A stretch of DNA of 64,000 nt, taken from contig NZ_CP156892.1 of NCBI RefSeq assembly GCF_019249795.2, positions 310,001 through 374,000 of the forward strand. The letters are read 5' to 3'. The notes below the pieces were generated by a model. The model was not told where the DNA came from. It saw only the letters and a list, made by a program, of their open reading frames with translations, and did no database searches. The translations under genes and the position numbers were made by a program. Shown in pieces: positions 1,382-39,168 of the stretch (the first letter of the stretch is position 1; each line of letters starts with the position of its first letter). This stretch comes from Segatella copri. Lineage in GTDB: Bacteria > Bacteroidota > Bacteroidia > Bacteroidales > Bacteroidaceae.

Positions 1382-1500
1382 AAAGATAATTATTTTAAGT
1401 TGTTAAACACTTACACATTCTTTTACCACCGTGGTTATCTCTATGCGAAACTCGGTTGGTGTGCCACAACTGGGCAACTCTTAATGCTTGATTTCGGGTA

Positions 1501-2972: not shown

Positions 2973-3392
2973 ATGATACAGCAAGTAGAATTTTCATTGC
3001 GTCCGCTTCCTCGCGGCTTTCACCTCGTAACCAATGAGGTGATGAGGAACTTGCCAGCGCTGCCTAAGACAGGGATTCTGAATCTCTTCGTAAGACATAC
3101 CAGTTGCGGATTGTCGCTGAACGAGAACTTCGACCCAGATGTGAGACATGACTTGAAGGGGATCTTCGAAAGACTGGTTCCGGATGGCGACCCAAGATAC
3201 CTGCACCAGGATGAAGGACCTACGGATATGTCGGCCCATGCCAAATCGAGCATGGTGGGTGTATCGCTCACCATTCCTATTACCAATGGCAGACTGAACC
3301 TTGGTACATGGCAGGGAATTTACCTCTGCGAATTCAGAGAGGGAGGCGGAAGCCGACACCTCATCGCAACGATTATCGGGGAAATCGAGTAG
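2973..3392 (+). CDS. yjbQ: YjbQ / UPF0047 family protein, C-terminus rewritten by a group II intron
   Basis: The 139-residue protein matches UPF0047 over its full length: RGFHLVTNEV near the start, HTSCGLSLNEN at about 42-52, the acidic and His-rich middle, and GTWQGIYLCEFR near the end. E. coli YjbQ is reported to have weak thiamine-phosphate synthase activity, but the cellular role is unsettled. The native protein almost certainly ended in Gly-Glu, as in E. coli. Here codons 138-139 (Ile-Glu) and the TAG stop come from the 3' end of an antisense group II intron whose boundary is at 3384. Removing the intron on paper restores GAA-TAA exactly. The two added residues are unlikely to harm folding. 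Confidence 0.9.
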   Translation: MIQQVEFSLRPLPRGFHLVTNEVMRNLPALPKTGILNLFVRHTSCGLSLNENFDPDVRHDLKGIFERLVPDGDPRYLHQDEGPTDMSAHAKSSMVGVSLTIPITNGRLNLGTWQGIYLCEFREGGGSRHLIATIIGEIE

Positions 3393-5305
3393 GAGGAAAA
3401 CGAAGCAGTTTTCTTCCTACTTTCGTTTTCCGACCTCTCACACCACCGTACGTGCGGTTCCGCATACGGCGGTTCCTATTTTGGATACCATTCGAGATAC
3501 GCATCCATTAAAGCAGCATACCCTGCCCTACATAGATGCTCATTTGTTATAGCTTTATGCAGTATGTGGCTGTCTGCTATACGCCAATAGCCCTTGCGAG
3601 TATTACCCCATTCGTATGCTTGGTATTTATTGATACCACATTTAATGAGGTTTGCCACTTTTGTCTTGGGTTTCTTCCAAGCTTTCCATATACACATGCG
3701 GATTCTACGCCTTAGCCATTCGTCTGTTTCAAGTAAAAGACGCTTCATATTGGCAAGATGATAATAGCCGACCCAACCTCTTATGTATTCTTTCAGCTTT
3801 TGCTTTCTCTTGGCATATCCCCATCCGTTGCTGCGACTTGTCAGTTCTTTCAACCTTGACTTCATCTTGGCTTTGGACTTTGGATGCACCGTGAGTTGGC
3901 ATTTGCCTTTCATCACATAAAAGGAGTAGCCGAGATATTTCACTCCGCGCACATACGACACTACGGTCTTTTCCTTGTTGACTTTGAGATATAGAGTATT
4001 CTCTATAAATCGGGTTATAGACTCCTTCACTCGCATTGCAGCCCTCTTGGACTTACAGAATATCATCGAGTCATCTGCATAGCGCACAAAGGGAAGCCCT
4101 CTGCGTTCAAGTTCTTTATCCAATTCGTTGAGCATGATGTTACTCAACAACGGACTTAGCGGTCCTCCTTGGGGAGTTCCTTCCTCGCTCGCTTCAAACA
4201 AGCCTTTGTTCATTACACCACTTCGGAGATATTTGTGTATAAGGCTGACCACTCTGCCGTCTTTTATCGTACGGCTGAGAATTTCTATGAGTTTGCTATG
4301 GCTCACGGTATCGAAGAAGCGTTCAAGGTCAAGGTCTACTACATATATGTAGCCTTCGTTGATTATCCTTTGCGCTCCTCGTAGTGCGTCATGGCATCCT
4401 CTTCTCGGACGGAAGCCGTAGCTCGTCTTGGAGAATTGGTTCTCATAGATGGGAGTCAGTACTTGGTTGATGGCTTGTTGCACCAGACGGTCTACTACTG
4501 TAGGTATTCCCAACAGGCGCATCTTGCCATTGTCCTTGGGTATTTCTACCCTTTTCACTGGGTTCGGACGGTAAGAACCGTCCATCAAGGAACGGATGAG
4601 TTCATCCTTGTTGGTCAAGAGCCATGGGAGCAGTTGCTCGCACGACATCTTGTCGATACCACCACAGCCTTTGTTTCTCACAACAGCCTTGTAGGCTCGG
4701 TTGAGATTTGCAGGACTAAGGATTTGCTCGAAAAGGTGTTCCTTGTCGAATGGTACTTCCACGATGTTGTCTTCACACATCCACATGAAGGTCTGCACTC
4801 CCCCATACCATTCGGTTTCCGACCTATCTCTTTGGGGGCAGCCATTAACTTGGGATAATGTTTTCTGCATTCTTTCCTTCATAAGGTATGTTTCAATTAC
4901 TATCGTTTAATTGTTAGGTTCTGCCCTTCGTGCAACGTTATCGACTATTGCACTACTATGGCATCTGCTGACTTCTCACAGCAAGCTTTACTCCATGACT
5001 TTCGTAAAGGCAACTAATCGTCATGTCCGTGAGACCTCCTCGGATAAGGGCTTATTCTTTCCATCTTATACCCACTTCATTTACACCAACCATTCCGAAT
5101 AGCTATAGGACTTTGATTTGTTTAGCAATCTCATCCATGGTCAAATGCCTTATATGAAGTTTCTGTACGTTAGGTCAGATGTTTGCCGCCAGCTTCTTTC
5201 AGATTCCACCTCGCAGTGGACACCTTTGCTATTGGCTATACAATTCCCGCTATTAGGGCTTGTTAGGGACTTGCACCCATTAGAATAAACTCATGCCGAG
5301 CATAC
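3384..5305 (-). mobile_element. Group II intron with maturase, inserted at the stop codon of yjbQ
   Basis: The element is about 1922 bp and lies antisense to yjbQ. At its 3' end on the minus strand is a domain V hairpin (about 3434-3467) whose strands CCGTATGCGG and CCGCACGTACGG leave a two-base bulge. It is followed by a domain VI stem whose closing GAGAGG/CCTACTC pairing leaves one bulged A, the expected branch point, seven bases before the end GAT at 3384. The 5' end is placed at 5305 (GTATG, a variant of the usual GUGYG) because joining the flanks then restores yjbQ's stop. The 5' exon is the T-rich tail of the terminator at 5313-5344. The roughly 420 bases upstream of the maturase are the structured 5' domains of the ribozyme. 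Confidence 0.85.
3476..4882 (-). CDS. ltrA: Group II intron reverse transcriptase/maturase (LtrA-like)
   Basis: The 468-residue protein carries the reverse transcriptase fingers-palm blocks, including GIDKMSCEQL near residue 75, SYGFRPRRGCHDAL near 154, GTPQGGPLSPLLSN at about 235-248 and the catalytic YADD at 268-271. A group II maturase X domain follows (about 340-430). I see no zinc-binding cysteine pairs or HNH residues at the C-terminus, so the DNA endonuclease domain appears to be missing, as in many bacterial maturases. It would assist splicing of its own intron and copy it into new DNA sites. The frame is intact from ATG to stop, so the intron may still be mobile. Confidence 0.93.
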   Translation of the reverse strand: MKERMQKTLSQVNGCPQRDRSETEWYGGVQTFMWMCEDNIVEVPFDKEHLFEQILSPANLNRAYKAVVRNKGCGGIDKMSCEQLLPWLLTNKDELIRSLMDGSYRPNPVKRVEIPKDNGKMRLLGIPTVVDRLVQQAINQVLTPIYENQFSKTSYGFRPRRGCHDALRGAQRIINEGYIYVVDLDLERFFDTVSHSKLIEILSRTIKDGRVVSLIHKYLRSGVMNKGLFEASEEGTPQGGPLSPLLSNIMLNELDKELERRGLPFVRYADDSMIFCKSKRAAMRVKESITRFIENTLYLKVNKEKTVVSYVRGVKYLGYSFYVMKGKCQLTVHPKSKAKMKSRLKELTSRSNGWGYAKRKQKLKEYIRGWVGYYHLANMKRLLLETDEWLRRRIRMCIWKAWKKPKTKVANLIKCGINKYQAYEWGNTRKGYWRIADSHILHKAITNEHLCRAGYAALMDAYLEWYPK

Positions 5306-17146: not shown

Positions 17147-17220
17147 GTGGACGTAGTTCAGTTGGTTAGAGCGTCAGATTGTGGTTCTGAATGTCGTGGG
17201 TTCGAGTCCCACCTTCCACC
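17147..17220 (+). tRNA. tRNA-His (GTG), first copy
   Basis: The cloverleaf can be drawn with the acceptor strands GTGGACG and CTTCCAC (one mismatch), an anticodon stem TCAGA/TCTGA around TT-GTG-GT, and a T arm GTGGG-TTCGAGT-CCCAC. The anticodon GTG reads His codons. A G at 17146 faces C at 17220 and fits the extra G-1 of tRNA-His. A complete CCA is not encoded. Confidence 0.95.
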
Positions 17221-17256
17221 CAACTATTTTTGAAAAAGCAAAACATAACCAATATG

Positions 17257-17330
17257 GTGGACGTAGTTCAGTTGGTTAGAGCGTCAGATTGTGGTTCTGA
17301 ATGTCGTGGGTTCGAGTCCCACCTTCCACC
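17257..17330 (+). tRNA. tRNA-His (GTG), second copy
   Basis: This is identical to the first copy, offset by exactly 110 bp, and preceded by the same AATATG. A tandem duplication is the simple explanation. Confidence 0.95.
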
Positions 17331-22785: not shown

Positions 22786-23338
22786 ACATGTCGTCATCAT
22801 CAAACTTGAGTCCCTCGGTTCGGTCTTTGATGTAATAATCGCTGAGCAGACCTATGAAAACGGTTATCTCCTTGATGGCCCTTTCGGTTTCGGGCGTAAT
22901 TTCCTTCTTCTGCAGGCGCAGCATCATCACACCATAGAGAGCATCGAGGCAGGTTTCAATCTCGTTGAGATCCTTGTCGCCCCGCTGGCGCAGCTCTACG
23001 ATGAAAGGCAGCACCTTGTAATATTCGGCATTGTAGATAGGAAACTTGGTGCTCTGCAGCAGCATGCCGTGCAGATCAATGACGTCCTTCAGTATCACCT
23101 TATTAATATTAAGGTGTCCTCCCTCGCGCTTTCCCTCCTCGTTCATCATGCGAATCAGGTTGCCAAACCAGTCGAGTTCTTCCTCGCGCTGCTCGGGTGT
23201 AAAGTCGAACCGGTCTACATAATTCTTTTTGATGACAGGCAGCGAGCATCCGTAAGCTCGGATGATGTCCTCAATCTGCCACATATATAATAAGTATTCT
23301 GCGATACTTTTCTTTCTTAATTCTTGTGCTACAAACAT
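22784..23338 (-). CDS. DUF4924 family protein
   Basis: The 184-residue protein is rich in alpha-helix and charged residues. It has the conserved opening VAQELRKKSIAEYLLYMWQIEDIIRAY and matches the Bacteroidetes family DUF4924, which has no known function. There is no signal peptide or membrane segment. It lies upstream of prfC in the same direction and may share its transcript. The ending, rich in Asp, is intact. Confidence 0.8.
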   Translation of the reverse strand: MFVAQELRKKSIAEYLLYMWQIEDIIRAYGCSLPVIKKNYVDRFDFTPEQREEELDWFGNLIRMMNEEGKREGGHLNINKVILKDVIDLHGMLLQSTKFPIYNAEYYKVLPFIVELRQRGDKDLNEIETCLDALYGVMMLRLQKKEITPETERAIKEITVFIGLLSDYYIKDRTEGLKFDDDDM

Positions 23339-23339
23339 A

Positions 23340-23368
23340 AACTTTGAACTGTTAACTTTTGAACTTTA
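23340..23368. repeat. Heptad array (AACTTTG-type) upstream of DUF4924
   Basis: Four words of 7, 7, 8 and 7 bp, based on AACTTTG and AACTGTT, lie immediately upstream of the DUF4924 start, between it and the LysE gene. Confidence 0.5.
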
Positions 23369-25389: not shown

Positions 25390-25508
25390 AATTTTTAAAA
25401 GATTAAGACAGTTATTAGTAGACCTTTCCTTCATTGGGAAGGTATGATTTAAGTTAATACAAACTCGCGAAACTCGTGAGAGGATTGTAGCGAGGGTTAG
25501 ATGTTAGT

Positions 25509-26188: not shown

Positions 26189-26193
26189 CTTTT

Positions 26194-26268
26194 GTTATTT
26201 ATTATTGATTATTGAGTACAATCAGCGAGAAATAATCACTAATCACTAATCACTAATAATTAATCACT
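26194..26268. repeat. Double heptad element between trpE and trpG
   Basis: Three words of the ATTATTG type (26194-26214) and five of the AATCACT type (26234-26268) flank a 19-bp unique segment containing AATCAGCGAG. It occupies nearly the whole trpE-trpG gap inside the operon. Confidence 0.65.
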
Positions 26269-26269
26269 A

Positions 26270-27709: not shown

Positions 27710-27731
27710 TTTAAAAATTAAATCTTTGCTA

Positions 27732-28931
27732 TTAGAAGTTTCCGTACTCTCCTGCCATTTCCTTATGGCTCAAATACGTTTCTACATCCTTGTCGCCACG
27801 GCCTGACACGGTGAGCACCACCACATCATCCTTCTTGAACTTCATCTTCTTCAGGGCTGCCACGGCGTGTGCACTCTCAATAGCCGGAATGATGCCCTCC
27901 ATGCGGGTGAGTTCGTAACCGGCGTAGATGGCCTCATCGTCCTTAATGGCGAGCACATGACTCCTGCCCGATGTGGCAAGGTCGGCGTGCATAGGGCCGA
28001 TGCCCGGATAGTCGAGACCGGCACTGATGGTAAAGGCTTCCTCTATCTGTCCGTCCTCGGTCTGCATCACGAGGGTACGGGCTCCGTGGATGATGCCCTC
28101 TGTACCGCAGTGCATGGTGGCAGCGGTATAATCGGTATCTATTCCGTGTCCGGCAGCCTCAGCCAGATATATCTTCACGCGGTCATCATCAATGTAGTGG
28201 TAGATGGTTCCGGCAGCGTTGCTTCCGCCACCCACGCAGGCGATGAGGTAATCAGGATAGTCGCGGCCTATCTTCTCCTCCAACTGCCATTTCAGTTCTT
28301 CGCTGATTACGCTCTGCATCTTGGCAACAATGTCTGGATAAGGGTGCGGACCCATGGTAGAACCTACGATGTAGAAGGTATCCTGTGGGTGGCAGCACCA
28401 GTCACGTATGGCCTCAGAGCAGGCATCGCTCAAGGTCATATTGCCGGTGCGCACAGGGTTCACCTTGGCTCCCAGCATCTTCATACGCTCTACGTTGGTA
28501 TGCTGGCGTTCCACATCGGTGGCACCCATGAAAATTTCGCACTTCATGTTCATCAGGGCGCATACCGTAGCTGTAGCCACACCGTGCTGTCCGGCTCCGG
28601 TTTCGGCAATGATGCGGGTCTTGCCCATCTTCTTGGCCATGAGAATCTGACCGATGGTGTTGTTAATTTTGTGTGCACCGGTATGGTTCAGGTCCTCGCG
28701 CTTCAGATAGAGCTGGCATCCGTACTTCTCGCTCATGCGCTTGGCATAATAAAGAGGTGAAGGACGGCCCACATAATCTTTGAGCAGCGCACGGTATTCC
28801 TTCTTGAACTCCTCGCTCTCAATGATTGGCTTGTAAGCCTGCTGCAACTCGGTTACACATTTATATAATATCTCAGGAACATACGCTCCTCCGAATTTTC
28901 CAAAAAATCCTTTTTCGTCAACTTGATACAT
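27732..28931 (-). CDS. trpB: Tryptophan synthase beta chain
   Basis: The 399-residue PLP enzyme has LKREDLNHTGAHKINN, whose Lys near residue 88 binds PLP, AETGAGQHGVATA near 110 and the phosphate-binding GGGSNAAG near 235. TrpB condenses indole, channelled from TrpA, with serine to give tryptophan. Length equals the standard TrpB1 form that pairs with TrpA. It follows trpA at 77 bp, with a repeat element between them, and precedes trpE at 22 bp. Confidence 0.97.
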   Translation of the reverse strand: MYQVDEKGFFGKFGGAYVPEILYKCVTELQQAYKPIIESEEFKKEYRALLKDYVGRPSPLYYAKRMSEKYGCQLYLKREDLNHTGAHKINNTIGQILMAKKMGKTRIIAETGAGQHGVATATVCALMNMKCEIFMGATDVERQHTNVERMKMLGAKVNPVRTGNMTLSDACSEAIRDWCCHPQDTFYIVGSTMGPHPYPDIVAKMQSVISEELKWQLEEKIGRDYPDYLIACVGGGSNAAGTIYHYIDDDRVKIYLAEAAGHGIDTDYTAATMHCGTEGIIHGARTLVMQTEDGQIEEAFTISAGLDYPGIGPMHADLATSGRSHVLAIKDDEAIYAGYELTRMEGIIPAIESAHAVAALKKMKFKKDDVVVLTVSGRGDKDVETYLSHKEMAGEYGNF

Positions 28932-28938
28932 AATACTT

Positions 28939-29011
28939 AGTTTATAATTTATTATTTATAGTTTATAGAGCAAGCCTGCTATACGGCGAAGCCGCTGTTA
29001 ACTATCAACTA
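28939..29011 (-). repeat. Heptad/core element between trpA and trpB
   Basis: Four AGTTTAT-type heptads (28939-28966), a core (28967-28997) and two TTAACTA-type heptads (to 29011, overlapping the trpA stop) form an imperfect inverted repeat. On the minus strand the core reads CAGCGGCTTCGCCG and then TATAGCAGGCTTGC. It closely matches the element at 37241-37318. Confidence 0.8.
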
Positions 29012-29785
29012 CTTTTCGAGGCACTCAAAAAGCCCATCTAAAGCCTTATCCGGATCACCGGTTTCATTGAGCAGGGTTACAAACTTGCTGCCGATGATGG
29101 CTCCCGCCGCATTATCCTGCGCACTGGTAAGGGTCTGCTTGTTGCTGATGCCGAAACCTATCATGCGTGGATTGCGCAGATTCATGCTGTTGATGTGGTT
29201 GAAATAAGCCAGCTTGGCATCGCCGAAACTGCTCTGGGCGCCCGTGATACTTGCCGAACTGACCATGTAGATGAATCCATCGGTATGCTCATCGATGAAA
29301 CGGATGCGCTCCTCGCTGGTTTCTGGCGTAATCATCATGATGACACGGATGTCATACTTATCGGCTATGGGTTTTACCACCTTCAGATAATCATCAAAGG
29401 GAAGGTCTGGGATGATGGTGCCGCTCACTCCACTCTCTACGCAGCTCTTGAAGAAAGCCTCAATGCCGTAGTGCATGATTGGGTTCAGATAACCCATCAG
29501 CACGAGTGGAAGCTGCACTTCATCCTTGATTTCCTTCAGCTGGGCGAAGAGTTTCTTCACCGTCATTCCGTTCTTCAGAGCCACGGTTCCGGCACTCTGG
29601 ATAACAGGACCATCAGCCAACGGATCACTGAAAGGGATTCCTACCTCAATCATATCTATCCCCTTGCGCTCCATCGCCTTAATTACATCACCGGTACCTT
29701 CCAAAGTTGGGCATCCGGCGCAGAAATACAAGCTCAAAAGCTTGCGGTCTTTATTGTTTGCAAATAATGCATTTATCTTATTCAT
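29009..29785 (-). CDS. trpA: Tryptophan synthase alpha chain
   Basis: The 258-residue TIM barrel has EVGIPFSDPLADGPVIQ (catalytic Glu near 48 and Asp near 59) and the phosphate-binding GFGISNKQ near residue 209. It cleaves indole-3-glycerol phosphate to indole and G3P and channels indole to TrpB. The opening KDRKLLSLYFCAGCPTLE is the Bacteroidetes form. It starts 13 bp after trpF. Confidence 0.96.
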   Translation of the reverse strand: MNKINALFANNKDRKLLSLYFCAGCPTLEGTGDVIKAMERKGIDMIEVGIPFSDPLADGPVIQSAGTVALKNGMTVKKLFAQLKEIKDEVQLPLVLMGYLNPIMHYGIEAFFKSCVESGVSGTIIPDLPFDDYLKVVKPIADKYDIRVIMMITPETSEERIRFIDEHTDGFIYMVSSASITGAQSSFGDAKLAYFNHINSMNLRNPRMIGFGISNKQTLTSAQDNAAGAIIGSKFVTLLNETGDPDKALDGLFECLEK

Positions 29786-29820
29786 TTTTTTTACCTTTTT
29801 ACTTTTTTACCTTTAAAAGG
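29785..29820. repeat. CCTTTTTA octad array at the trpF-trpA junction
   Basis: Words of 8 bp based on CCTTTTTA and CTTTTTTA fill the 13-bp gap and run into the trpF 3' end. The same word type occurs between trpC and trpD. Confidence 0.5.
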
Positions 29821-30419
29821 AATTCCTTGAGTTTCTCTACATCCTTCAGTCCCGGTTCTATCTCAAACCTGGAATTGAGGTCGATTCCTACGCATCGGGG
29901 ATGATGGAAAGACAGGATACGGGAAGCATCTTCCGGACCTATGCCGCCACTCAACAGGAATGGAACATCGCCATCATATTCATCCAGTACCTGCCAGTCA
30001 AACTGCTGACCACTTCCGCCCACTGTCTTACATTTGGTGTCGAAAAGGAAGTAGTCAACAGCGCCTACATACTCCTTATATTTCAGAATGTCCCCGGCAG
30101 TGGAAACACTAATGGCTTTGATTATCTTCATATTCCCCTTTGCTGCACGCAGCTGCTCACACAGTTCCCTGCTCTCGCTTCCATGCATCTGCACCGCATT
30201 CAGAGAGAATGAATGAATCTTATCCAACATATTGGAAATGGAATCATTCACGAAGACTCCCACTCGGCACACATTGCGGTCAGCATCAGAGCGAGCCAGC
30301 ACATGACTGGCATACCGTGGAGACTTAGGATAAAAGATAAATCCCATCATATCAACGCCGAGTTGCGCAACCTGCTTTACATTACCAGGTTCACGCATTC
30401 CACAAACCTTTACTAACAT
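29799..30419 (-). CDS. trpF: Phosphoribosylanthranilate isomerase
   Basis: The 206-residue protein begins LVKVCGMREPGN, with the catalytic Cys near residue 7, and ends with LLSGGIGPEDA near 156 and GIDLNSRFEIEPG near 178, carrying the catalytic Asp and the phosphate site. It converts PRA to CdRP, the third step of the pathway. It is separate from trpC, unlike the E. coli fusion, and starts five bp after it. Confidence 0.95.
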   Translation of the reverse strand: MLVKVCGMREPGNVKQVAQLGVDMMGFIFYPKSPRYASHVLARSDADRNVCRVGVFVNDSISNMLDKIHSFSLNAVQMHGSESRELCEQLRAAKGNMKIIKAISVSTAGDILKYKEYVGAVDYFLFDTKCKTVGGSGQQFDWQVLDEYDGDVPFLLSGGIGPEDASRILSFHHPRCVGIDLNSRFEIEPGLKDVEKLKEFLLKVKK

Positions 30420-30424
30420 TTTCT

Positions 30425-31237
30425 TTATTGTTTCAACTGCTTAATAAACTCTTGAAGCGCCACGCCCGGGTCAGCCTGTTTCATGAACTGTTCGCCCATC
30501 AGGAAACCTCTGAAGCCGCCTTCTTCTCTCAACCGGAGAACCGTCTGCGGGTTGGAGATGCCACTCTCGCTCACCCTGCACACATCCTTCGGAAGTTTCT
30601 CTGCCAATCTGAAGCTGTTCTCCACATCAGTAAAGAAGGTTCCGAGATTTCGGTTGTTGATGCCGTACATATCCGGTTCCAGTTCAGCATACTCGAAGTC
30701 GCGCTCATTATGCATCTCGAGCAGTACCTCCATGCCCAGCTGGTGTGCCATGTTCATGAGTTGCTTACACTCCTCCTTGGTCAGGCAGGCCGCAATGAGC
30801 AGCACGGCAGAAGCTCCGCAGTATCTCGCCTGCAGCAGCTGGTATTCCTCTACCACGAAGTTCTTATATAAGATAGGTAGGGTAACGCCCACATGGCGCG
30901 CCTCCTGAATATACTCATCATATCCTCCGAAGTAATCAATGTCGGTGAGGATGCTGAGCGCCGAGGCTCCGTTCTGCTGGTAGGCGAGCGGGATGATGCT
31001 CGGCTTACCTTCCTGTTTGATCCAGCCCTTAGAAGGCGATTTGCGCTTGAATTCAGCAATGATTCCCGTTTCCGAGTTCATCAGCGACTCCTTCATGCTT
31101 CCGCCCGGCACCTTTCCCCCATCTTCCTGCATTTTCTGCTCGGTGAGGGTTATCATCTGCCGTGGCTGGATAAAGCGCTTACGCTGCTCAATCTCTATTC
31201 TTTTATGAGCCACAATTTCCTCTAAAATATCAGCCAT
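30425..31237 (-). CDS. trpC: Indole-3-glycerol phosphate synthase
   Basis: The 270-residue TIM barrel has IIAEFKRKSPSKG near residue 59, where the two Lys and the Glu are catalytic or substrate-binding, then LTDIDYFGG near 96, YGINNRNLGTF near 193 and SESGISN near 219. It closes CdRP to indole-3-glycerol phosphate. It lies between trpD (148-bp gap with repeats and a G-tract) and trpF (five bp). Confidence 0.96.
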   Translation of the reverse strand: MADILEEIVAHKRIEIEQRKRFIQPRQMITLTEQKMQEDGGKVPGGSMKESLMNSETGIIAEFKRKSPSKGWIKQEGKPSIIPLAYQQNGASALSILTDIDYFGGYDEYIQEARHVGVTLPILYKNFVVEEYQLLQARYCGASAVLLIAACLTKEECKQLMNMAHQLGMEVLLEMHNERDFEYAELEPDMYGINNRNLGTFFTDVENSFRLAEKLPKDVCRVSESGISNPQTVLRLREEGGFRGFLMGEQFMKQADPGVALQEFIKQLKQ

Positions 31238-31267
31238 TTTTTTCGTTTTTTTATTTAAGATAAAGAC

Positions 31268-31389
31268 TTGGGGAACCAGCGATGGAATCGCTGGGAACGG
31301 GGGGAGGGGGGGGGAACAAAGGGGTTAAGGCTCTTTTTACCTTTTTACCCTTTTACCTTTTTACTTTTAAAAGCCCTTTTTACCTTTAA
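31268..31389. repeat. Hairpin, G-tract and CTTTTTAC array between trpD and trpC
   Basis: The gap holds an 8-bp perfect hairpin CCAGCGAT/ATCGCTGG (about 31277-31295), a run of six and then nine G split by one A (31299-31314), and an array of 8-bp CTTTTTAC words (about 31333-31389) reaching the trpD stop. On the minus-strand mRNA the G-run is a C-run and the array is G/A-rich. Confidence 0.7.
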
Positions 31390-32390
31390 CTGTTGATCTC
31401 TACGAATTTCTTGAAGGTAGCGAGCGCCTTACCCGAGTCAATGCTCTCTCTTGCTATCTCCACACATTCCTCTATGCTCTTCTGTCCCTTCTCCATTACC
31501 TGGATGCCGAAGGCTGCATTGGCGAGAACGATGTTCTTCTGGGCTGGGAGGGCACGGTTTTCAAGTACTGCATCAAAGATGTCCTTAGCCTCTTCCTCGG
31601 TTGCTCCGCCTCGCACCTCTTCCGGTTTGGCTATCTCGAAACCGAGACCCTGAGGCTTGAAGATCTTCTCATAGTTGTTGGTGGTTACCTTGAAGTCGCC
31701 GGTGAGTGAAATTTCATCATATCCGTCGATGCTGTTAACAATGCCGAAATCAATGCCTAGTTTCTGGTAAACCTGATTGTAAAGGCGCATCTGGTCGAGA
31801 TTGGCTACACCCAGCAACTGGCACTTAGGCTGACTAGGATTAACAAGAGGACCTAACAGGTTGAACACGGTAGGAAACTGCAAAGCCTTGCGGATAGGAC
31901 CTACAAACTTCATTGCCTTGGCGAAGAGCTGGGCATGAAGATAAACGATGCCTGCCTCGTTGATGCTGCGGTTCAGCTTGTCTATATCATCGGTAAACTG
32001 GACACCGTGGTTCTTGATGATGTTGCTGGCACCGCTCACCGAAGTAGCCGCATAGTTGCCGTGCTTTGCCACCTTGTAACCCGCACCCGCAATGACGAAG
32101 CAGGAAGTAGTAGAAATGTTAAAGGTGTTCTTGCGGTCGCCACCGGTTCCCACCACGTCAATGTAGCGGTCGCAATCCAGGATGGCTGGCACGCCTGTGG
32201 CAAGAATTCCGTCACGGAAACCGAGCAGTTCATCTACCGTTACGCCTCTCATCTGCAAACCGGTGAGCAGGGCTGTAATCTGTTCCTCAGGAAAATCACT
32301 CTTGGTGATTCCTACAATGATGTCTCGGGTTTCCTCACGGGAAAGTTCCTCATGGTTCAACATTCTGTTCAAAATGTCCTTCATTTCCAT
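31386..32390 (-). CDS. trpD: Anthranilate phosphoribosyltransferase
   Basis: The 334-residue enzyme shows VVGTGGDRKNTFNIST near residue 80 (PRPP site), KHGNYAATSVSGASN near 108 and FNLLGPLVNPSQP near 176. It transfers phosphoribose to anthranilate. It is the first structural gene of this operon and starts 42 bp after the attenuator T-tract, which puts all seven genes under leader control. Confidence 0.96.
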   Translation of the reverse strand: MEMKDILNRMLNHEELSREETRDIIVGITKSDFPEEQITALLTGLQMRGVTVDELLGFRDGILATGVPAILDCDRYIDVVGTGGDRKNTFNISTTSCFVIAGAGYKVAKHGNYAATSVSGASNIIKNHGVQFTDDIDKLNRSINEAGIVYLHAQLFAKAMKFVGPIRKALQFPTVFNLLGPLVNPSQPKCQLLGVANLDQMRLYNQVYQKLGIDFGIVNSIDGYDEISLTGDFKVTTNNYEKIFKPQGLGFEIAKPEEVRGGATEEEAKDIFDAVLENRALPAQKNIVLANAAFGIQVMEKGQKSIEECVEIARESIDSGKALATFKKFVEINS

Positions 32391-32431
32391 AGTTAATATC
32401 TCCTATATTTTTTGTTTTTATTTTTCGTTGT

Positions 32432-32470
32432 AAAAGAAAAGGGGCCTGTCGTAAGTTACGGCAGACCCCT
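32432..32470 (-). terminator. Attenuator terminator of the trp operon
   Basis: On the minus strand AGGGGTCTGCCGTAA pairs with the downstream half ending in CAGGCCCC, with two G-U pairs, and is followed by TTTTCTTTT. It lies 40 nt after the stop of the Trp-rich leader peptide and 42 nt before trpD. Confidence 0.9.
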
Positions 32471-32510
32471 AGTATATTATGTTGTTCACATCCACATACA
32501 GCGTCTCGAC

Positions 32511-32570
32511 TCACGACTTCTGGAATCTTGAGTTACGCCACCACCATGATGTAGATACGAATGTATTCAT
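32511..32570 (-). CDS. trpL: trp operon leader peptide with three consecutive Trp codons
   Basis: The 19-residue frame MNTFVSTSWWWRNSRFQKS ends in TGA. Trp codons 9-11 lie at 32546-32538. It sits between a strong promoter (32693-32663) and a U-tailed hairpin in front of trpD, which is the arrangement of ribosome-mediated attenuation: scarce charged tRNA-Trp would stall the ribosome on the TGG run. Just after the Trp codons GCGTAACTC can pair with GAGT...ACGC near the stop codon, and AGAC there can pair with GTCT in the terminator. The pairing scheme is plausible but not proven. There is no Shine-Dalgarno, as expected for Bacteroidetes. Confidence 0.88.
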   Translation of the reverse strand: MNTFVSTSWWWRNSRFQKS

Positions 32571-32662
32571 ATTGCTTTTCTTTTAATTGTTTGTTACTAC
32601 CAAAAACGAGGCGTTTCTTTCTTTTTAACGAAAAGATTCTCCTTCGTTCTTCATTTCTACCG

Positions 32663-32693
32663 CAAAAGTACAGTTTTTCTTTTAAACTACAAA
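32663..32693 (-). promoter_or_regulatory. Promoter of the trp operon
   Basis: TTTG (32693-32690) and TACTTTTG (32670-32663) on the minus strand are 19 bp apart. The leader peptide starts about 93 bp downstream of the -7 box. Confidence 0.85.
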
Positions 32694-32949
32694 CTTTTTG
32701 TCGAGAAATTTTAAGATTTAACACTATTTTATCATCCAGCGCCCCTTTTTCTCCACTTTCGTCTCACGTTTTCTCCACTATACCTTATTATATATAGGGA
32801 GAAAGAAAAAGAAAAAATATTTCGCCTGAATGTAATAAATTTCCCAATACGCCGTTATTTATTTAGAGAACAGGTAACTCATCCTCAAGACATGCCCGTT
32901 CTAAAAACAAATAACAAGAAGTATTATTCAAATAAAAAGATTCACGCCT
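32694..32949. other. Intergenic gap between the trp promoter and the small ORF
   Basis: This stretch is AT-rich, with short runs such as TATTATATATAGGG. I see no tRNA, repeat family or convincing reading frame in it. A promoter for the small ORF or rpe could lie here, but no good TAnnTTTG box is visible on the plus strand. Confidence 0.4.
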
Positions 32950-33078
32950 ATGAAGCAAGTATTTACACCAAAGAAAATGAGACCTTCGGCTCAGACCATC
33001 TACTTCATCAAGCAGATAGCCTACTCCTATCATACCATGGTGCAAAATGGGAAGCTAAAGGTGTGCTATCCTAACTAG
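32950..33078 (+). CDS. Candidate small protein, 42 residues
   Basis: An intact frame begins MKQVFTPKKMRPSAQTIYFI and ends NGKLKVCYPN. The pattern of Lys-rich start, TI-FIKQIA-Y helix and Cys near the end resembles short uncharacterised proteins that occur in multiple copies in Bacteroidales. It stops 13 bp before rpe and might be cotranscribed. Function unknown; codon use looks protein-like, but the length makes chance possible. Confidence 0.45.
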   Translation: MKQVFTPKKMRPSAQTIYFIKQIAYSYHTMVQNGKLKVCYPN

Positions 33079-33091
33079 AAGAAGAAGAAAG

Positions 33092-33745
33092 ATGAAAACA
33101 ATGGTATCCCCTTCATTGCTCTCAGCCAACTTCATTGACCTGAAGAGTGATATAGAGATGATTAACAAGAGTGAGGCCGACTGGCTCCACCTCGATGTGA
33201 TGGATGGTGTCTTCGTGCCCAACATCTCGTTCGGCTTCCCTGTGATAGAAGCCGTGAGCAAGGTGTGCACCAAGCCCCTCGATGTTCACTTTATGATACA
33301 GCACCCGGAAAATTACATTGAGCAGACTGCCAAGCTCGGTGCCATGCTGATGAACGTGCACTACGAGGCCTGCACCCATCTGCACCGCACCATCCAGCAG
33401 ATTCATGCAGCAGGCATGAAGGCAGGAGTTACCCTCAACCCTTCTACCCCGGTATGTGTACTAGAAGACATCATCTGCGATGTAGACATGGTACTTTTGA
33501 TGAGCGTTAACCCAGGCTTCGGCGGACAGAAATTCATCGAGAACACCATCAAGAAGATAGGCCGTCTGCGCCAGCTCATCAAAGAGAGCGGAAGCCAGGC
33601 ACTCATCGAGGTAGATGGCGGCGTGCAGGCAGAAACTGCTCCAAGACTGGTGAAAGCCGGAGTAGACGTGCTGGTAAGCGGAAGTTATGTGTTCAAGAGC
33701 ACAGACCCTTATGCTACCATCCATGCCCTGAAAGAACTCCTCTAA
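33092..33745 (+). CDS. rpe: Ribulose-phosphate 3-epimerase
   Basis: The 217-residue TIM barrel has SPSLLSANFIDL at the N-terminus, LHLDVMDGVFVPN near residue 33 (metal His and Asp), VHFMIQHPENY near 65, LMSVNPGFGGQKF near 137 and IEVDGGVQ near 172. It interconverts ribulose-5-P and xylulose-5-P in the pentose phosphate pathway. Its stop overlaps the end of the convergent sigma factor gene by four bases, with no separate terminator. Confidence 0.96.
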   Translation: MKTMVSPSLLSANFIDLKSDIEMINKSEADWLHLDVMDGVFVPNISFGFPVIEAVSKVCTKPLDVHFMIQHPENYIEQTAKLGAMLMNVHYEACTHLHRTIQQIHAAGMKAGVTLNPSTPVCVLEDIICDVDMVLLMSVNPGFGGQKFIENTIKKIGRLRQLIKESGSQALIEVDGGVQAETAPRLVKAGVDVLVSGSYVFKSTDPYATIHALKELL

Positions 33746-34338
33746 TCAAGATTCAGATAGATATTGTGCTCCTTAGCCATCTTGCGGAGGTTAAGGAGCG
33801 CATAACGCATTCTTCCTAGACTCGTATTGATGCTCACATTGGTACACTCGGCTATATCCTTGAAAGACATCTGCTGATAATAACGCATATAAACCACCTC
33901 GCGTTGTGGAGCCGGCAGAAAGTCTACCAGTTTCTTCACATCACGGAGCACCTGTTTGCGTACCATCTCCTGCTCAGCACAGTCTGCCTGAAAATCTTCG
34001 CCTCGCAGACAGGAAAGATCATTGTCGTTCCCCTGTTCAACCATGCGGAATACACACTGACTGCGATAACCATCGATGATGACATTATGCGCTATACGCA
34101 TTAACCACGAAATAAATTTGCCAGAACAGGAATACTGGCCAGCATGCAAACGACTGATAGCCTTTACGAATGTCTCCTGGAAGATATCATTCGCCAGATC
34201 CTCATCGTGAACCACGAAAAGGATGTAAGAGAACAGTTTCACCTCGTTGCGTGAAAGCAACAGGTCAAAGGCTCTGTTGTCGCCCCCGACATAAGCCAGG
34301 GCCAACTCTTCGTCTGTCATATTATTGAGTTTTCTCAT
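33742..34338 (-). CDS. ECF-type RNA polymerase sigma factor
   Basis: The 198-residue protein has region 2 with DEDLANDIFQETFVKAI (about 45-62) and WLMRIAHNVIIDGYR (about 79-93), and region 4 with LPAPQREVVYMRYYQQMSF near 145 and a helix-turn-helix ending SLGRMRYALLNLRKM. This is a stand-alone ECF sigma of the Bacteroidetes type. No anti-sigma gene is next to it, so its control and targets are unknown. A good promoter lies 93 bp upstream. Confidence 0.9.
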   Translation of the reverse strand: MRKLNNMTDEELALAYVGGDNRAFDLLLSRNEVKLFSYILFVVHDEDLANDIFQETFVKAISRLHAGQYSCSGKFISWLMRIAHNVIIDGYRSQCVFRMVEQGNDNDLSCLRGEDFQADCAEQEMVRKQVLRDVKKLVDFLPAPQREVVYMRYYQQMSFKDIAECTNVSINTSLGRMRYALLNLRKMAKEHNIYLNLD

Positions 34339-34430
34339 TTTCTTAATCTTATTTATTAAGTAAATGTCTATCCAATAGGCTACCCAGTATTTATTGCGTT
34401 AATAATGTTAAATATCGTTGCAAAGATAAC

Positions 34431-34452
34431 AATTTATTTTGAAAACACCAAA
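34431..34452 (-). promoter_or_regulatory. Promoter of the ECF sigma factor
   Basis: TTTG (34452-34449) is about 10-20 bp upstream of the -7 box TATCTTTG (34438-34431) on the minus strand, within an AT-rich region; the exact spacing is the least certain part. The leader to the ATG is about 93 bp. Confidence 0.6.
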
Positions 34453-34512
34453 CTTTTTTGCAAAAACATTTAATTTTAACATTACCAGTACCTGTTTTCC
34501 AAATAAAATTCG

Positions 34513-34520
34513 TAACTTTG
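34513..34520 (+). promoter_or_regulatory. -7 box for the pectinase genes
   Basis: TAACTTTG lies 94 bp before the ATG of the GH28-GH105 gene. The leader is A-rich, typical of highly expressed Bacteroidetes genes. Confidence 0.6.
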
Positions 34521-34613
34521 CACCGATGTGTTAAACATCAAACCCAAACAAACGAATAAACAGATTCATACAAATAAATAAATACAAATAATCATAAAAC
34601 TAGAACAAAGACA

Positions 34614-37235
34614 ATGAAGAAATTCTTTAAGACCTTACTCGTTGCTCTGCTTCTCATCCCAGCCTGCGCTTGGGCCGACGGATGGAACGATGCTGAATAT
34701 CAGCGCATTGAACAGAGCATACAGTTGCCTAATATCAAGCAGGCAACCAAGAAGTATGTAATTTCTGCCTATGGAGCCAAGCAGAACGCTTCGGCTGCAC
34801 AGAACCAGAAGGCAATCAACAAACTCATCGCCCTCGTCTCTAAGAAAGGTGGCGGTACCATCGTCATACCGAAGGGTACCTGGCGCACAGGAGCCATTGA
34901 GATGAAGAGCTTCGTAGAACTGAACCTCGAAGAAGGTGCCGTACTGCAGTTTGCCTTTGAGCCAAAACTCTATCCGCTGGTTCGCACCGCATGGGAAGGA
35001 TTGGCATGCTGGAACTACTCTCCATGCATCTACGCCTACAAGGTTTCCGACATCGCCATTACCGGTAAAGGTACCATCGACGGAGGCGGCAACAATGATA
35101 CATGGTGGCAGTGGAACGGCAATCCTTACTTCGGATACAAGGAGGGCGTAACCAAGGAACACCAGAAGATGGGCTCCCGCGCCAGACTGCAGAAAATGGC
35201 AGAAGACGGTGTGCCTTTCGATGAGCGCAAGTTCGGTATGGGACAGGGTCTCCGCCCTCAGCTCGTCAACTTCGTACGCTCTGAGCGCATTCTCATCAAG
35301 GACGTAAAGATGATCAACTCGCCTTTCTGGGTGATGCACCCTCTGCTCTGCAAGGACATCACGGTAGACGGCGTAACCGTTTGGAACGAAGGACCTAACG
35401 GAGACGGATGCGACCCTGAAGCATGCGAGAATGTACTCATTCAGAACTGTATCTTCCACACCGGCGACGACTGCATCGCCATCAAGAGCGGACGAAACAA
35501 CGACGGTCGTCTCTGGAACAAGCCATCTAAGAATATCATCATCCGCAACTGTCGCATGGAAGACGGACACGGTGGCGTAGTCATCGGTTCTGAGATTTCA
35601 GGCGGATGCGAGAATGTATACGCCGAGAACTGCGAGATGGACTCTCCTCATCTGGAGCGCATCCTCCGCATCAAGACCAACAACTGCCGCGGCGGACTCA
35701 TCCAGAACATCCACATGCGCAAGGTTACCGTAGGACAGTGTAAGGAAGCCGTACTCAAAATCAACCTCGACTATGAGCCAAGAGAGGCTTGCTACCGCGG
35801 ATTTGAACCTACCGTGCGCAACGTGAGCATGGAAGATGTTACCTGCCAGAAGAGCAACTACGGTGTGCTCATCATCGGTGGAAACAAGGTAGAAAACGTA
35901 TACGACATCCATGTAAAAAACTGTAAGTTCGACGGTGTCATCAAGCAGCCTACCAAGGTTACCGGCAAGACAAGAAACGTGAAGTTCGACAACCTCATCA
36001 TCAATGGTTCACTGGTTCTCAACAAGGAAGACCGTCCTTACCAGACCTACTCAGAGTGGCTCACCCACAGCGAGATGCAGCGCGTGCCTCAGTCTTACCT
36101 GCTCGACTTCAGCAAGAAGCCAAAGTGGAGCTACGTAATGGGCATTGAGATGGAAGGTATGCTCGACACCTACCTCCATTACAAAGGCGGAAAGAGCACC
36201 TTCAAGGGAGCTGATGCCGAAGCCAACAACGAGGCAATCATCAACTACCTGAAAGAATATCCAGCCAAGATGATTGACGAAAAGGGAAACATCACAGGCT
36301 ACAAATATGAGGATTTCAACCTCGACAATGTGCGCACAGCGAAGTTCATCCTCCGCATGCACAACCTCTTCCCTAGCAAGAGCAGCGAACTGGCGCTGAA
36401 GACGCTCTTCAAGCAGCTGCAGAACCAGCCTCGCACCAAGGAAGGCGTTTACTGGCACAAGGCTATTTACGCCAACCAGGTATGGCTCGACGGCATCTTC
36501 ATGGGTCTGCCTTTCTACTGCAACTACGCTGTACAGAACCTCAAGCCAAAGAAGGCGAAGAAGATTCTCGACGATGCGGTAGACCAGATTGTGAAGACCG
36601 ACCTGCGTACCTACGATGAGAAGACTCAGCTCTGGAAACATGCATGGGACGAGACCCACAGCCAGTTCTGGGCAAACAAGGAAGACGGAAAGAGCCAACA
36701 TACTTGGGCAAGAGCCCTCGGATGGTACGTCATGGCAATGACCGAATGCCTCGATGCCATGCCTGAAGATTATGCTCGCCGCGGCGAAATCATCACCTTA
36801 TTAAATAAGGCCATGAAGAGCGTGGTGAAATACCAGGATAAGAAGACGGGCGTATGGTACGACGTGATGGACGTAAAGGATCCTCGCAACTACCTCGAGA
36901 GCACCGCTTCAAGCATGTTTGCCTATGTTCTCCTCAAGGGTTACCGCAAGGGATACCTCGGCAAGGAATATCAGGAAGCAGGTATCAAGGCTTATGAGGG
37001 AATCCTGAACAACTTCATCCAGGTAAATCCTGACAAGACCATCAGCCTTACCCGCTGCTGTGCTGTCAGCGGACTCGGTCCTGGCCCTGGTCCATACGTC
37101 AAGAAGCCAAACTTCAAGCGCGACGGCAGCTTCGACTATTACATGAGCGAACCAATCCGCGACAATGATGCCAAGGGCGTAGGTCCTTTCATCTGGGCTA
37201 GTCTGGAAATGGAAATGCAGGGACTGAATAAGTAA
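34614..37235 (+). CDS. Secreted GH28 polygalacturonase / GH105 unsaturated glycuronyl hydrolase fusion
   Basis: The 873-residue protein starts with a signal peptide (cleavage near ACAWA-DG, residue 21). Residues about 45-460 form a GH28 beta-helix with the catalytic pattern NGDGCDP (262-268), GDD (284-286), GHGG (318-321) and RIKT near 350. Residues about 480-873 are a GH105-like (alpha/alpha)6 barrel with WLDGIFMGLPF near 620 and HAWDET near 680. GH28 cuts polygalacturonan, and GH105 removes the unsaturated sugar that a pectate lyase leaves. A PL1 lyase follows directly, so the three activities fit one pectin pathway in the periplasm or at the cell surface. Confidence 0.9.
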   Translation: MKKFFKTLLVALLLIPACAWADGWNDAEYQRIEQSIQLPNIKQATKKYVISAYGAKQNASAAQNQKAINKLIALVSKKGGGTIVIPKGTWRTGAIEMKSFVELNLEEGAVLQFAFEPKLYPLVRTAWEGLACWNYSPCIYAYKVSDIAITGKGTIDGGGNNDTWWQWNGNPYFGYKEGVTKEHQKMGSRARLQKMAEDGVPFDERKFGMGQGLRPQLVNFVRSERILIKDVKMINSPFWVMHPLLCKDITVDGVTVWNEGPNGDGCDPEACENVLIQNCIFHTGDDCIAIKSGRNNDGRLWNKPSKNIIIRNCRMEDGHGGVVIGSEISGGCENVYAENCEMDSPHLERILRIKTNNCRGGLIQNIHMRKVTVGQCKEAVLKINLDYEPREACYRGFEPTVRNVSMEDVTCQKSNYGVLIIGGNKVENVYDIHVKNCKFDGVIKQPTKVTGKTRNVKFDNLIINGSLVLNKEDRPYQTYSEWLTHSEMQRVPQSYLLDFSKKPKWSYVMGIEMEGMLDTYLHYKGGKSTFKGADAEANNEAIINYLKEYPAKMIDEKGNITGYKYEDFNLDNVRTAKFILRMHNLFPSKSSELALKTLFKQLQNQPRTKEGVYWHKAIYANQVWLDGIFMGLPFYCNYAVQNLKPKKAKKILDDAVDQIVKTDLRTYDEKTQLWKHAWDETHSQFWANKEDGKSQHTWARALGWYVMAMTECLDAMPEDYARRGEIITLLNKAMKSVVKYQDKKTGVWYDVMDVKDPRNYLESTASSMFAYVLLKGYRKGYLGKEYQEAGIKAYEGILNNFIQVNPDKTISLTRCCAVSGLGPGPGPYVKKPNFKRDGSFDYYMSEPIRDNDAKGVGPFIWASLEMEMQGLNK

Positions 37236-37240
37236 AACTT

Positions 37241-37318
37241 AGTTTATAGTTTACAGTTTACAGCGACTTCACCGTATAGCAAGATTGCCCTATAAACTAT
37301 TAACTCTAAACTGTAAAC
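37241..37318 (+). repeat. Heptad/core element between the pectinase genes
   Basis: Three AGTTTAC-type heptads (37241-37261) and four inverted TGTAAAC-type heptads (37291-37318) flank a core, CAGCGACTTCACCG then TATAGCAAGATTGC. The two arms can pair into a long hairpin. The core differs from the trpA-trpB copy by a few changes that mostly keep its small hairpins. Confidence 0.8.
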
Positions 37319-37350
37319 TGAATTTAAAACTATTAATTGAATTCTCACCG

Positions 37351-39168
37351 ATGGAAAAGAAAATATTCACAACAATGGCAGCAGCACTCATGAGTGCTGC
37401 TGCTTTGGCACAAACTCCAGCCTTTCCGGGCGCAGAAGGTCACGGAAGATATGTAACCGGCGGAAGAGGTGGAAAAGTAGTACACGTAACCAATCTCAAT
37501 GACAGCGGAACAGGTTCTTTCAGAGAGGCTGTCAAAACGGGAAAGAGAATCATCGTCTTCGATGTGGCTGGCGTCATCGCCCTGAAGTCTGAGCTCAAGA
37601 TAGGTGACAACATCACCATCCTCGGACAGACTGCCCCATCTCCGGGCATCACCCTCAGATATTACACCGTTCAACCGGGCAACAACAACATCATCCGTTT
37701 CCTCCGCATACGCCGCGGAGAGGAGAAGGATATCAATGACGGTGCGGATGCTACCTGGCAGCGCAACAAGACCGGCATCATCTTCGACCACTGTTCCTTC
37801 AGCTGGAGTATCGATGAGGTGGCTTCATTCTACGACAACAACAATTTCACCATGCAGTGGTGTACCGTTGCCGAAAGTCTCACCAATCCGGGCCACTCTA
37901 AGGGAGCACATGGTTACGGAGGCATCTGGGGCGGTAAGCTCGCCAGCTTCCACCACAACTTCGTAGGCCATCTCACGAACCGCGGTCCCCGTTTCAATGG
38001 CGCAAGATACGGATGGACAGGCTACACCAGCAACAAGGATTACGATACATATCAGTGGAAGAACACCGTGCAGGCAGAAAACGTAGACTTCCGCAACTGC
38101 GTGATGTATAACGCACAGGGTACCTGCTACGGAGGGCCGGGCGGCGGACAGATCAACATCGTGAACAATTACTACAAGGCTGGACCAAGCCACAGTTTAA
38201 AAAGTACAACCCTGAACGGCCTCAAGGTAAGCGTAAGCTCCGGCAAGGAACGTGGAAACCAGGACCGTATCACGCAAGTAACCGTATCAACAAGTGGAAA
38301 TTCTGACAAGAATCATCCTGAGTTCTACGGCATGACCAGCCGTTACTTCATCAACGGAAACACCACCGAAAACACCAAGGGTTCTGTTACCAAGAACAAG
38401 GACTGGAAGGGTGTGATATACGATGATGGAACCTATACTTATAATGGCGAGGAATATTCTGCTGACAAAAAGAATTTCTACGGAGATGCCGTAGCCCACC
38501 AAACCATCAGTGGTGTTTCTTGTGTCAAGATCAAGATGGACGCTGCTGCTCCAACAGGAGAAGTTACCACCCACTCTGCTGCCGAAGCATTCAGTAAAGT
38601 ACTGGCATACAGCGGAGCCTCACTCTACCGCGATGAGATTGATGCGCGCTACATGGAAGAGGCAAAGACAGGTACTGCCAAGTACAAGGGAAGTATTACC
38701 AAATCACCTGGCATCATCGACAAGGTATCAGATGTAAACGGCTACACCGAGGCAAACTTCGGCACCGCTTCTCGCCCTGCCGACTTCGACACCGATAAGG
38801 ACGGCATTCCTGATGCATGGGAGACAGCCAATGGTCTGGATCCAAACGACGCCACAGATGCCCTCACCTACTCGCTTGACAGCAAGGAGTACTACACCAA
38901 CCTTGAGGTTTACGCCAATTCTCTGGTTGAGGACATCATGAAGCAGGGCAATGCTGATGCAGAGAACAAGGTAGATGAATACTATCCTGCATGGAAGAAA
39001 CCTACAGGCATCTCGCAGATCATCACCTCCAATCCCAGTGAATTAGCCGAAGTAAAGTATTACAGCCTCAACGGCACCCTCCTTTCTGCTCCTCAAAAAG
39101 GCATCAACATCCGCAAGATGCTGTTTCAGAACGGAAAGACCGTAGTGGATAAGGTAATAAAGGAATAA
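37351..39168 (+). CDS. Secreted PL1-type pectate lyase with C-terminal sorting-like tail
   Basis: The ATG at 37351 is preferred to the upstream frame start at 37285, because it is followed at once by a signal peptide (MEKKIFTTMAAALMSAAALA), whereas the upstream 22 codons lie in the heptad element. The 605-residue product opens FPGAEGHGRYVTGGRGGKVVHV, typical of Bacteroidetes pectate lyases, with a right-handed beta-helix, a DADxDG-like calcium loop (DTDKDGIPDAWE near 495) and a C-terminal tail TGISQI...YSLNGTLL...KGINI. Such lyases cut polygalacturonate by beta-elimination. Confidence 0.88.
   Translation: MEKKIFTTMAAALMSAAALAQTPAFPGAEGHGRYVTGGRGGKVVHVTNLNDSGTGSFREAVKTGKRIIVFDVAGVIALKSELKIGDNITILGQTAPSPGITLRYYTVQPGNNNIIRFLRIRRGEEKDINDGADATWQRNKTGIIFDHCSFSWSIDEVASFYDNNNFTMQWCTVAESLTNPGHSKGAHGYGGIWGGKLASFHHNFVGHLTNRGPRFNGARYGWTGYTSNKDYDTYQWKNTVQAENVDFRNCVMYNAQGTCYGGPGGGQINIVNNYYKAGPSHSLKSTTLNGLKVSVSSGKERGNQDRITQVTVSTSGNSDKNHPEFYGMTSRYFINGNTTENTKGSVTKNKDWKGVIYDDGTYTYNGEEYSADKKNFYGDAVAHQTISGVSCVKIKMDAAAPTGEVTTHSAAEAFSKVLAYSGASLYRDEIDARYMEEAKTGTAKYKGSITKSPGIIDKVSDVNGYTEANFGTASRPADFDTDKDGIPDAWETANGLDPNDATDALTYSLDSKEYYTNLEVYANSLVEDIMKQGNADAENKVDEYYPAWKKPTGISQIITSNPSELAEVKYYSLNGTLLSAPQKGINIRKMLFQNGKTVVDKVIKE

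Follow-up and report, generated by a model that had tools for sequence, protein, structure and literature searches.

Two copies of the element in the window

The window analysed here is a 64,000-nucleotide (nt) stretch of Segatella copri DNA (contig NZ_CP156892.1, positions 310,001 to 374,000 of the forward strand), and our subject is a non-coding element present in it twice, each time as a short core between two arrays of 7-nt words, or heptads. Copy A occupies 28939-29011 on the minus strand, where it fills nearly the whole of the 77-nt gap from the trpA stop codon to the trpB start codon, while copy B, on the plus strand, follows a gene with GH28 and GH88 domains. Both copies share one plan: a left array of AGTTDAH words, a core reading CGGCTTCGCCG-TATAG-CAAGATTGC or a variant of it and, on the right, the inverted word, again as an array. 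In copy A the order on the minus strand is TAGTTGATAGTTAACAG-CGGCTTCGCCG-TATAG-CAGGCTTGC-TCTATAAACTATAAATAATAAATTATAAACT, and in copy B on the plus strand it is AGTTTATAGTTTACAGTTTACAG-CGACTTCACCG-TATAG-CAAGATTGC-CCTATAAACTATTAACTCTAAACTGTAAACT. Direct reading of the sequence places both copies, with their common core, where a preliminary description had put them, and its account of the arms as inverted arrays of 7-nt words agrees with our arm comparison and with Tandem Repeats Finder (TRF), which reports period-7 arrays at 28938-28968, 37241-37263 and 37290-37319.

The left array of copy A, TAGTTGATAGTTAACAG (28995-29011, minus strand), has two words only, and its first TAG is the stop codon of trpA. 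The core (28970-28994) consists of the mini-palindrome CGGCTTCGCCG (28984-28994), TATAG and the mini-palindrome GCAGGCTTGC (28970-28979), and the right array (28939-28969), made of degenerate inverted words, ends 7 nt ahead of the trpB start codon (28931). Copy B begins 6 nt past a stop codon ending at 37235, with a left array of three AGTT words plus AG (37241-37263); its core (37264-37288) comprises CGACTTCACCG (37264-37274), TATAG and GCAAGATTGC (37279-37288), and its right array of four inverted words (37290-37319) is followed by an ATG at 37351. Two small hairpins in the core had been described as largely kept. This holds for the second, but in copy B two of the four pairs of the first (CGACTTCACCG) are broken. 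A loose core pattern run over the window found copies A and B as its only mismatch-free matches, its six matches with two mismatches being at chance level (8 found against 3.8 expected). An Rfam scan placed no family at its gathering cut-off on either copy.

The genes on either side, called here as throughout by a simple open reading frame (ORF) heuristic, are trpA before copy A (29009-29785, minus strand, PF00290), a trpB-like gene after it (27732-28931, minus strand, PF00291, named trpB from gene order and comparison of trp loci), the GH28 and GH88 gene before copy B (34614-37235, plus strand, by Pfam domains) and a gene after copy B with no Pfam match (37351-39168, plus strand). The placement of copy B between pectinase genes is thus supported for the gene before it only.

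A dispersed family in the nearest genome and across the genus

The element is abundant in G001, the nearest genome compared. Copy B as a query gave 98 matches there, many of them palindromic duplicates, with a best E value of 1.4e-16; a triple-heptad pattern matched exactly 110 times, against 0 for the same pattern read backwards; and a sequence-only model built from 11 copies gave 122 matches at E<=1 and about 32 distinct loci at E<=1e-3 after merging by position. We delimited 75 array clusters in 313 kb of G001 stretches, which were picked where element matches pointed, the triple-heptad listing having given part of the 110 places. Twenty further stretches meant as a blind sample contain none of the 75 clusters, so that they under-represent the family, and they supply most of the background gaps for the divergent-gap, stop-closure and composition comparisons below. 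The preliminary description had proposed a dispersed non-coding family, in which the core is kept while the words vary; the number of copies, their occurrence beyond a fixed set of orthologous sites and the core alignment all agree with this.

Outside G001 the picture changes with the core. Among 40 relatives, the core pattern with up to three mismatches matched in one, G001 itself, whereas the model matched at E<=1e-3 in 14 of 249 genus genomes, these genome sets being samples of a larger group. The matches outside G001 that were read by eye have inverted heptad arms around other cores, and G067, the next relative, shows one of the two mini-palindromes. A second family, defined from seven loci in four genomes, carries a core of about TGATTACCYTGCAAGCC-TTC-GCCTATAGAA-TAATCA between the same AGTTTAT and ATAAACT arms. 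At E<=1e-4 its model matches 11 of the 249 genomes, namely G001, weakly, and ten others, and the richest genome has 19 matches at E<=1e-4 and 30 at E<=1e-3, with both strands of a site counted. Its gene context was read roughly at 20 loci, three of which, at contig ends, gave no sequence. In these sequences the arms and their order recur, and the core differs by clade. Carriage by phage was also considered and rejected: one pattern scan of viral contigs gave four matches, all without heptad arms, which we read as chance.

Polarity and placement at stop codons

The clusters of G001 have a strict order. With arrays written as L (AGTT sense) and R (inverted), the 75 clusters divide into 28 L, 26 LR, 17 R, 2 LL, 1 RR, 1 LLR and 0 RL, so that 27 two-armed copies read L-core-R and none reads R-L. 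Sixty-nine clusters lie outside ORFs and six inside, which is the intergenic, gene-oriented placement expected of arrays of the TAACTGA type discussed below. Among 99 arrays outside ORFs, 59 begin between -15 and +12 nt from a co-oriented stop codon and 17 face a start codon. The solo arrays number 40, with 32 of them after a stop and a single one facing a start. The commonest offset from the stop is -2 (14 arrays), at which the first AG of the array completes a TAG stop codon. Only one of the 69 clusters falls in a divergent gap, compared with 39 of 248 background gaps (p=0.0007), and clusters are also found between convergent genes. Four is the commonest number of words, both in L arrays (29 of 60) and in R arrays (22 of 46), although the sampling favoured longer arrays.

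The arrays also close reading frames. All three frames are closed within 30 nt on the AGTT strand in 51 of 65 arrays of at least four words. The opposite strand shows this in 21 of 65, base-shuffled arrays in 26.7% of cases and control stretches after stops in 28 of 255. For the TAACTGA repeats, MacGregor 2015 (PMC4679880) argues that the stop codons in the word limit where repeats can sit. The same source proposes that such repeats are an array of binding sites, and the regular spacing, the degeneracy at two word positions only and the constant orientation to the coding strand would likewise suit sites for an RNA- or DNA-binding protein. We regard this as very improbable for the present element, given that the words differ between species and even between strains at one site, that most gaps have no array and that no protein was identified.

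Folding without covariation

The inverted arms, as had been proposed, would let the RNA form a long hairpin with the core at its tip, and the 26 two-armed copies do fold better than their dinucleotide shuffles (mean z -4.26, 24 of 26 below -2). In the window this is true of copy B (z -3.65) but not of copy A (z -0.52). Nothing, however, indicates that the pairing is maintained. Across the 26 two-armed elements, variable word positions match at a rate of 0.545 within an element and 0.577 with shuffled partners, and the arms of one element form duplexes of -16.8 kcal/mol, compared with -18.3 kcal/mol for arms of shuffled partners. In the core, an alignment of 16 copies (14 from G001 and 2 from the window, loci without a recognisable core being left out) contains one double change against a shuffle mean of 2.2, with as many or more in 477 of 500 shuffles, so that the compensatory changes sought in the core hairpins do not exceed chance. 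A selected hairpin is not supported, given that neither the arms nor the core hairpins covary. The elements fold well because their arms are inverted, and hairpin formation, as far as the sequences tell, does not look selected.

These results bear on the idea that the element acts as a structured RNA, that is, a terminator, a 3'-end stabiliser or a hairpin coupling stop to start, with paired arms under selection. Its folding relative to shuffles and its placement after stops, including between convergent gene pairs, would fit such a role. We nevertheless find it distinctly unlikely, as arms of the same element pair no better than mixed ones, the core shows no covariation and copy A folds no better than its shuffles. 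Moreover, 45 of the 75 clusters are one-sense arrays in a single run, and an R-L order would fold equally well and yet is absent.

Replacement of whole gaps between strains

Over most of 35 kb the window and G001 are about 97-98% identical. Of 21 gaps of at least 15 nt that were compared, four are wholly replaced (starting at 23339, 26189, 27710 and 37236), although their 300-nt flanks are 94.3-99.7% identical; the gap at 25390 is intermediate (81.6%), and the other 16 are 94.4-100% identical on aligned columns. Copy B is absent from G001. Conversely, the window has a plain 22-nt gap after trpB (27710-27731, minus strand), where G001 has an element of the family (G001 472928-473012). At 23337-23357 (minus strand) the window has three related words, AGTTAAC, AGTTCAA and AGTTTAT, after a stop codon, and G001 has a longer AGTT-type array in the same gap. 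The gap at 26189-26269 contains arrays whose words differ between the strains: the window has heptads of TAATCAC at 26233-26269, and G001 has heptads of another word. Some operon gaps therefore turn over as blocks while the genes on either side stay nearly unchanged.

Within 60 nt of the replaced gaps, the upstream genes carry 18 substitutions in 237 nt, compared with 9 in 840 at 14 intact gaps, and on the downstream side 8 in 240 compared with 8 in 840; the count falls to 3 in 160 at 61-100 nt from the replaced gaps. The gene after copy B is 91.5% identical between the window and G001, compared with 98.1% for the region before it. The excess of substitutions beside the swapped gaps therefore points to short imported tracts, that is, to homologous exchange, and fresh transposition is less likely as the cause of the differences between the window and G001, given these flanking substitutions and the identities around copy B. 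Two polymorphic sites examined by eye have short AT-rich matches but nothing that is clearly a target duplication. The suggestion that the element is possibly mobile thus holds in that its presence and absence do differ between strains, but the substitution pattern favours exchange over movement.

G067 offers nine comparable sites, and at seven of them the array is missing. At the counterpart of G001 181242 the whole 30-nt array is kept with one change, and at site 303030 two right-arm words remain without the core and the left arm. The element-free gaps of G067 range from 3 nt up to longer ones filled by other repeats.

A miniature inverted-repeat transposable element (MITE), or an element of the REPIN type, mobilised in trans by a transposase specific for the arms or core, would account for the many dispersed copies with a kept core, for the terminal inverted arms, for the seven G067 sites without an array and for the existence of a second family, in which the same arms enclose a different core. 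We consider this rather unlikely. The swapped gaps look imported, the two sites read by eye show no clear target duplication, the arms are degenerate arrays that vary in word number and not fixed ends, and no parent element was found with PF01797 (Y1 transposase) as the one transposase family searched. There are two PF01797 genes in G001 and three in G067. Both genes of G001, like the single G067 gene that was read, have GCCCTTTCAGGGCG-type palindromes on their flanks and not the heptad element, and an origin by RAYT and REP was rejected, since the PF01797 genes read carry another palindrome family. The GCCCTTTCAGGGCG-type palindromes beside these genes look like a REP/RAYT system in their own right. 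They also occur in G001 at about 470075-470202, as a composite of GCCCTTTCAGGGCG and GCCCAGGGC..CCCTGGGC palindromes; the corresponding gap of the window (30420-30424) is 5 nt long.

Tandem arrays in the wider genus

Tandem arrays are not confined to this family. In 80 trp loci of other species, chosen regardless of arrays, 217 gaps hold 35 tandem arrays, compared with 0.8 per shuffled set; 16 have a period of 7, nine of 8, seven of 9 and three other periods, and in several cases the array runs exactly from the stop codon to the next start codon. Under slightly broader limits on gap size, arrays occur in 59 of 192 gaps in G009 (39 of period 7), 11 of 55 in G010, 15 of 125 in G067 and 39 of 248 in G001, G009 and G010 having been chosen after arrays were seen there and G067 as the nearest relative. 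G017, of the same genus, has arrays in 2 of 42 gaps, and four genomes of other families of the order have them in 5 of 117. The load of G009 is unusually high and made up of many different words. From these counts, the elements are a composite form of a habit that is common but uneven in the genus. A genus-wide polarity in composition was rejected as a tendency only, the ratio of G-rich to C-rich arrays being 12:3 at stops, 19:6 in gap-filling arrays and 5:8 before starts. The window itself has octad arrays, TTTTTACC and CTTTTTAC, near gene stops (29788-29814 and 31333-31369), and at the first site the length of the array differs between the window and G001 (29786-29798).

Such arrays raise the question whether there is an element at all, or whether plain replication slippage and gene conversion produce the repeats, with gene edges and stops limiting which arrays survive. 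The 7-, 8- and 9-nt arrays of different words in gaps of many genus species and the octad length difference between strains are in keeping with slippage, and in an earlier survey heptanucleotides outnumbered the other classes of long repeats in most genomes (Mrazek 2007, as cited in PMC4679880). We hold this to be improbable. Dozens of sites share one word family and a multi-copy core, the L-core-R order is strict, and the word number has its mode at four, in a sample that favoured longer arrays.

A proposed copied spacer suited to stop-start junctions

The reading we favour, with a probability of roughly 0.45, is that the element is a lineage-specific, copied and mostly tolerated spacer that suits stop-start junctions and by which strains differ through homologous exchange. 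A unit consisting of a degenerate (AGTTDAH)n array, a short core with at least one mini-palindrome and a second such array in inverted orientation would have spread by copying to many compact stop-start junctions and 3' ends of genes within this Segatella copri lineage, and we infer a gain in the lineage of G001 and not a loss elsewhere. There it would stay as a transcribed spacer tolerated by translation. The left array would start at the upstream stop codon and usually bring further stops into each of the three coding-strand frames, while the right array would provide an AT-rich stretch ahead of the next start codon or act as the left array of a convergent gene. Differences between present-day strains would stem largely from short-tract homologous recombination, in which entire gaps are exchanged.

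Several observations weigh against this reading. Strict orientation is the part least explained by neutral copying alone, and 23 of the 99 arrays outside ORFs obey neither position rule. The excess of substitutions comes from four sites, and over its first 30 nt it may have been raised by the way gap edges align. The array kept in G067 may mean constraint, though one flanking gene is unusually similar there (95%). Finally, stop closure is strong for the AGTT family and weak across species, where co-directional 7- and 8-nt arrays show it in 49 of 79 cases on the coding strand and 39 of 79 antisense; because this difference is small, stop arrays were rejected as a general explanation of heptads.

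Arrays of heptamers are in themselves already known, as in the TAACTGA repeats, and the composite form is what differs. In cyanobacteria, the short tandemly repeated repetitive sequences (STRRs) include heptanucleotide arrays that are common in some genomes. To our knowledge, neither STRRs nor long simple repeats have a core, an L-core-R order or dispersal as a unit. For long simple sequence repeats of 5-11 nt, heptanucleotide arrays are likewise described as common in some genomes (Mrazek 2007, as cited in PMC4679880). TAACTGA heptamer direct repeats are reported (MacGregor 2015, PMC4679880) from gaps of Beggiatoaceae, cyanobacteria and five Bacteroidetes; like the present element they are gap-located 7-nt arrays oriented to genes, but they stand mostly just before starts, as one fixed word in direct repeat with one inverted case. 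Here the arrays follow stops and consist of degenerate words in inverted pairs around a multi-copy core, and the words are AGTTDAH and its inverse, the latter containing TAACT in some forms only, so that the TAACTGA word is not the one used. REP, BIME and REPIN elements with their RAYT transposases (PMC2817692, PMC3116915 and PMC3733652) are likewise dispersed intergenic palindromes with modular composites, the palindrome of REP and REPIN bearing a GTAG or CGTC tag at one end (PMC3733652), whereas our arms are heptad arrays with no RAYT tie found among the PF01797 genes read. A Porphyromonas gingivalis MITE with an inner minisatellite (PMC4596501) is another dispersed Bacteroidota element with tandem repeats inside; in our case the tandem arrays form the arms, and the search, for PF01797 alone, found no transposon parent. 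Searches of an open-licence library, from which most subscription journals are absent, gave no title on the composite heptad-core-heptad form.

It is conceivable, though we would not bet on it, that a wider and so far undescribed class of dispersed cassettes exists in the Prevotella group, with degenerate heptad arms in AGTT sense from the stop codon inward, an exchangeable clade-specific core and orientation-aware placement at gene 3' ends. Bacterial heptamer arrays have been noted before without explanation, and here they come with a strict polarity toward stop codons. Add to this a pair of multi-copy families that share arms but differ in core, relatives without the arrays at the same sites, and whole-gap swaps between strains about 97% identical, and origin and effect become testable in gut bacteria.

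Other features of the window

Toward its end (39988-64000) the window has, one 68% match aside, no match in the compared 80 kb of G001. Group II intron matches (Rfam) lie at 3384-5220 on the minus strand, and G001 lacks the stretch 3384-5305 at the collinear position. The window also has a match to the SAM-I/IV riboswitch (1381-1492, minus strand) and two tRNAs (17147-17330). In several other Prevotella trp loci (e.g. L045, L061 and L078), a GC-rich hairpin followed by a T run lies upstream of trpB and resembles an attenuator.

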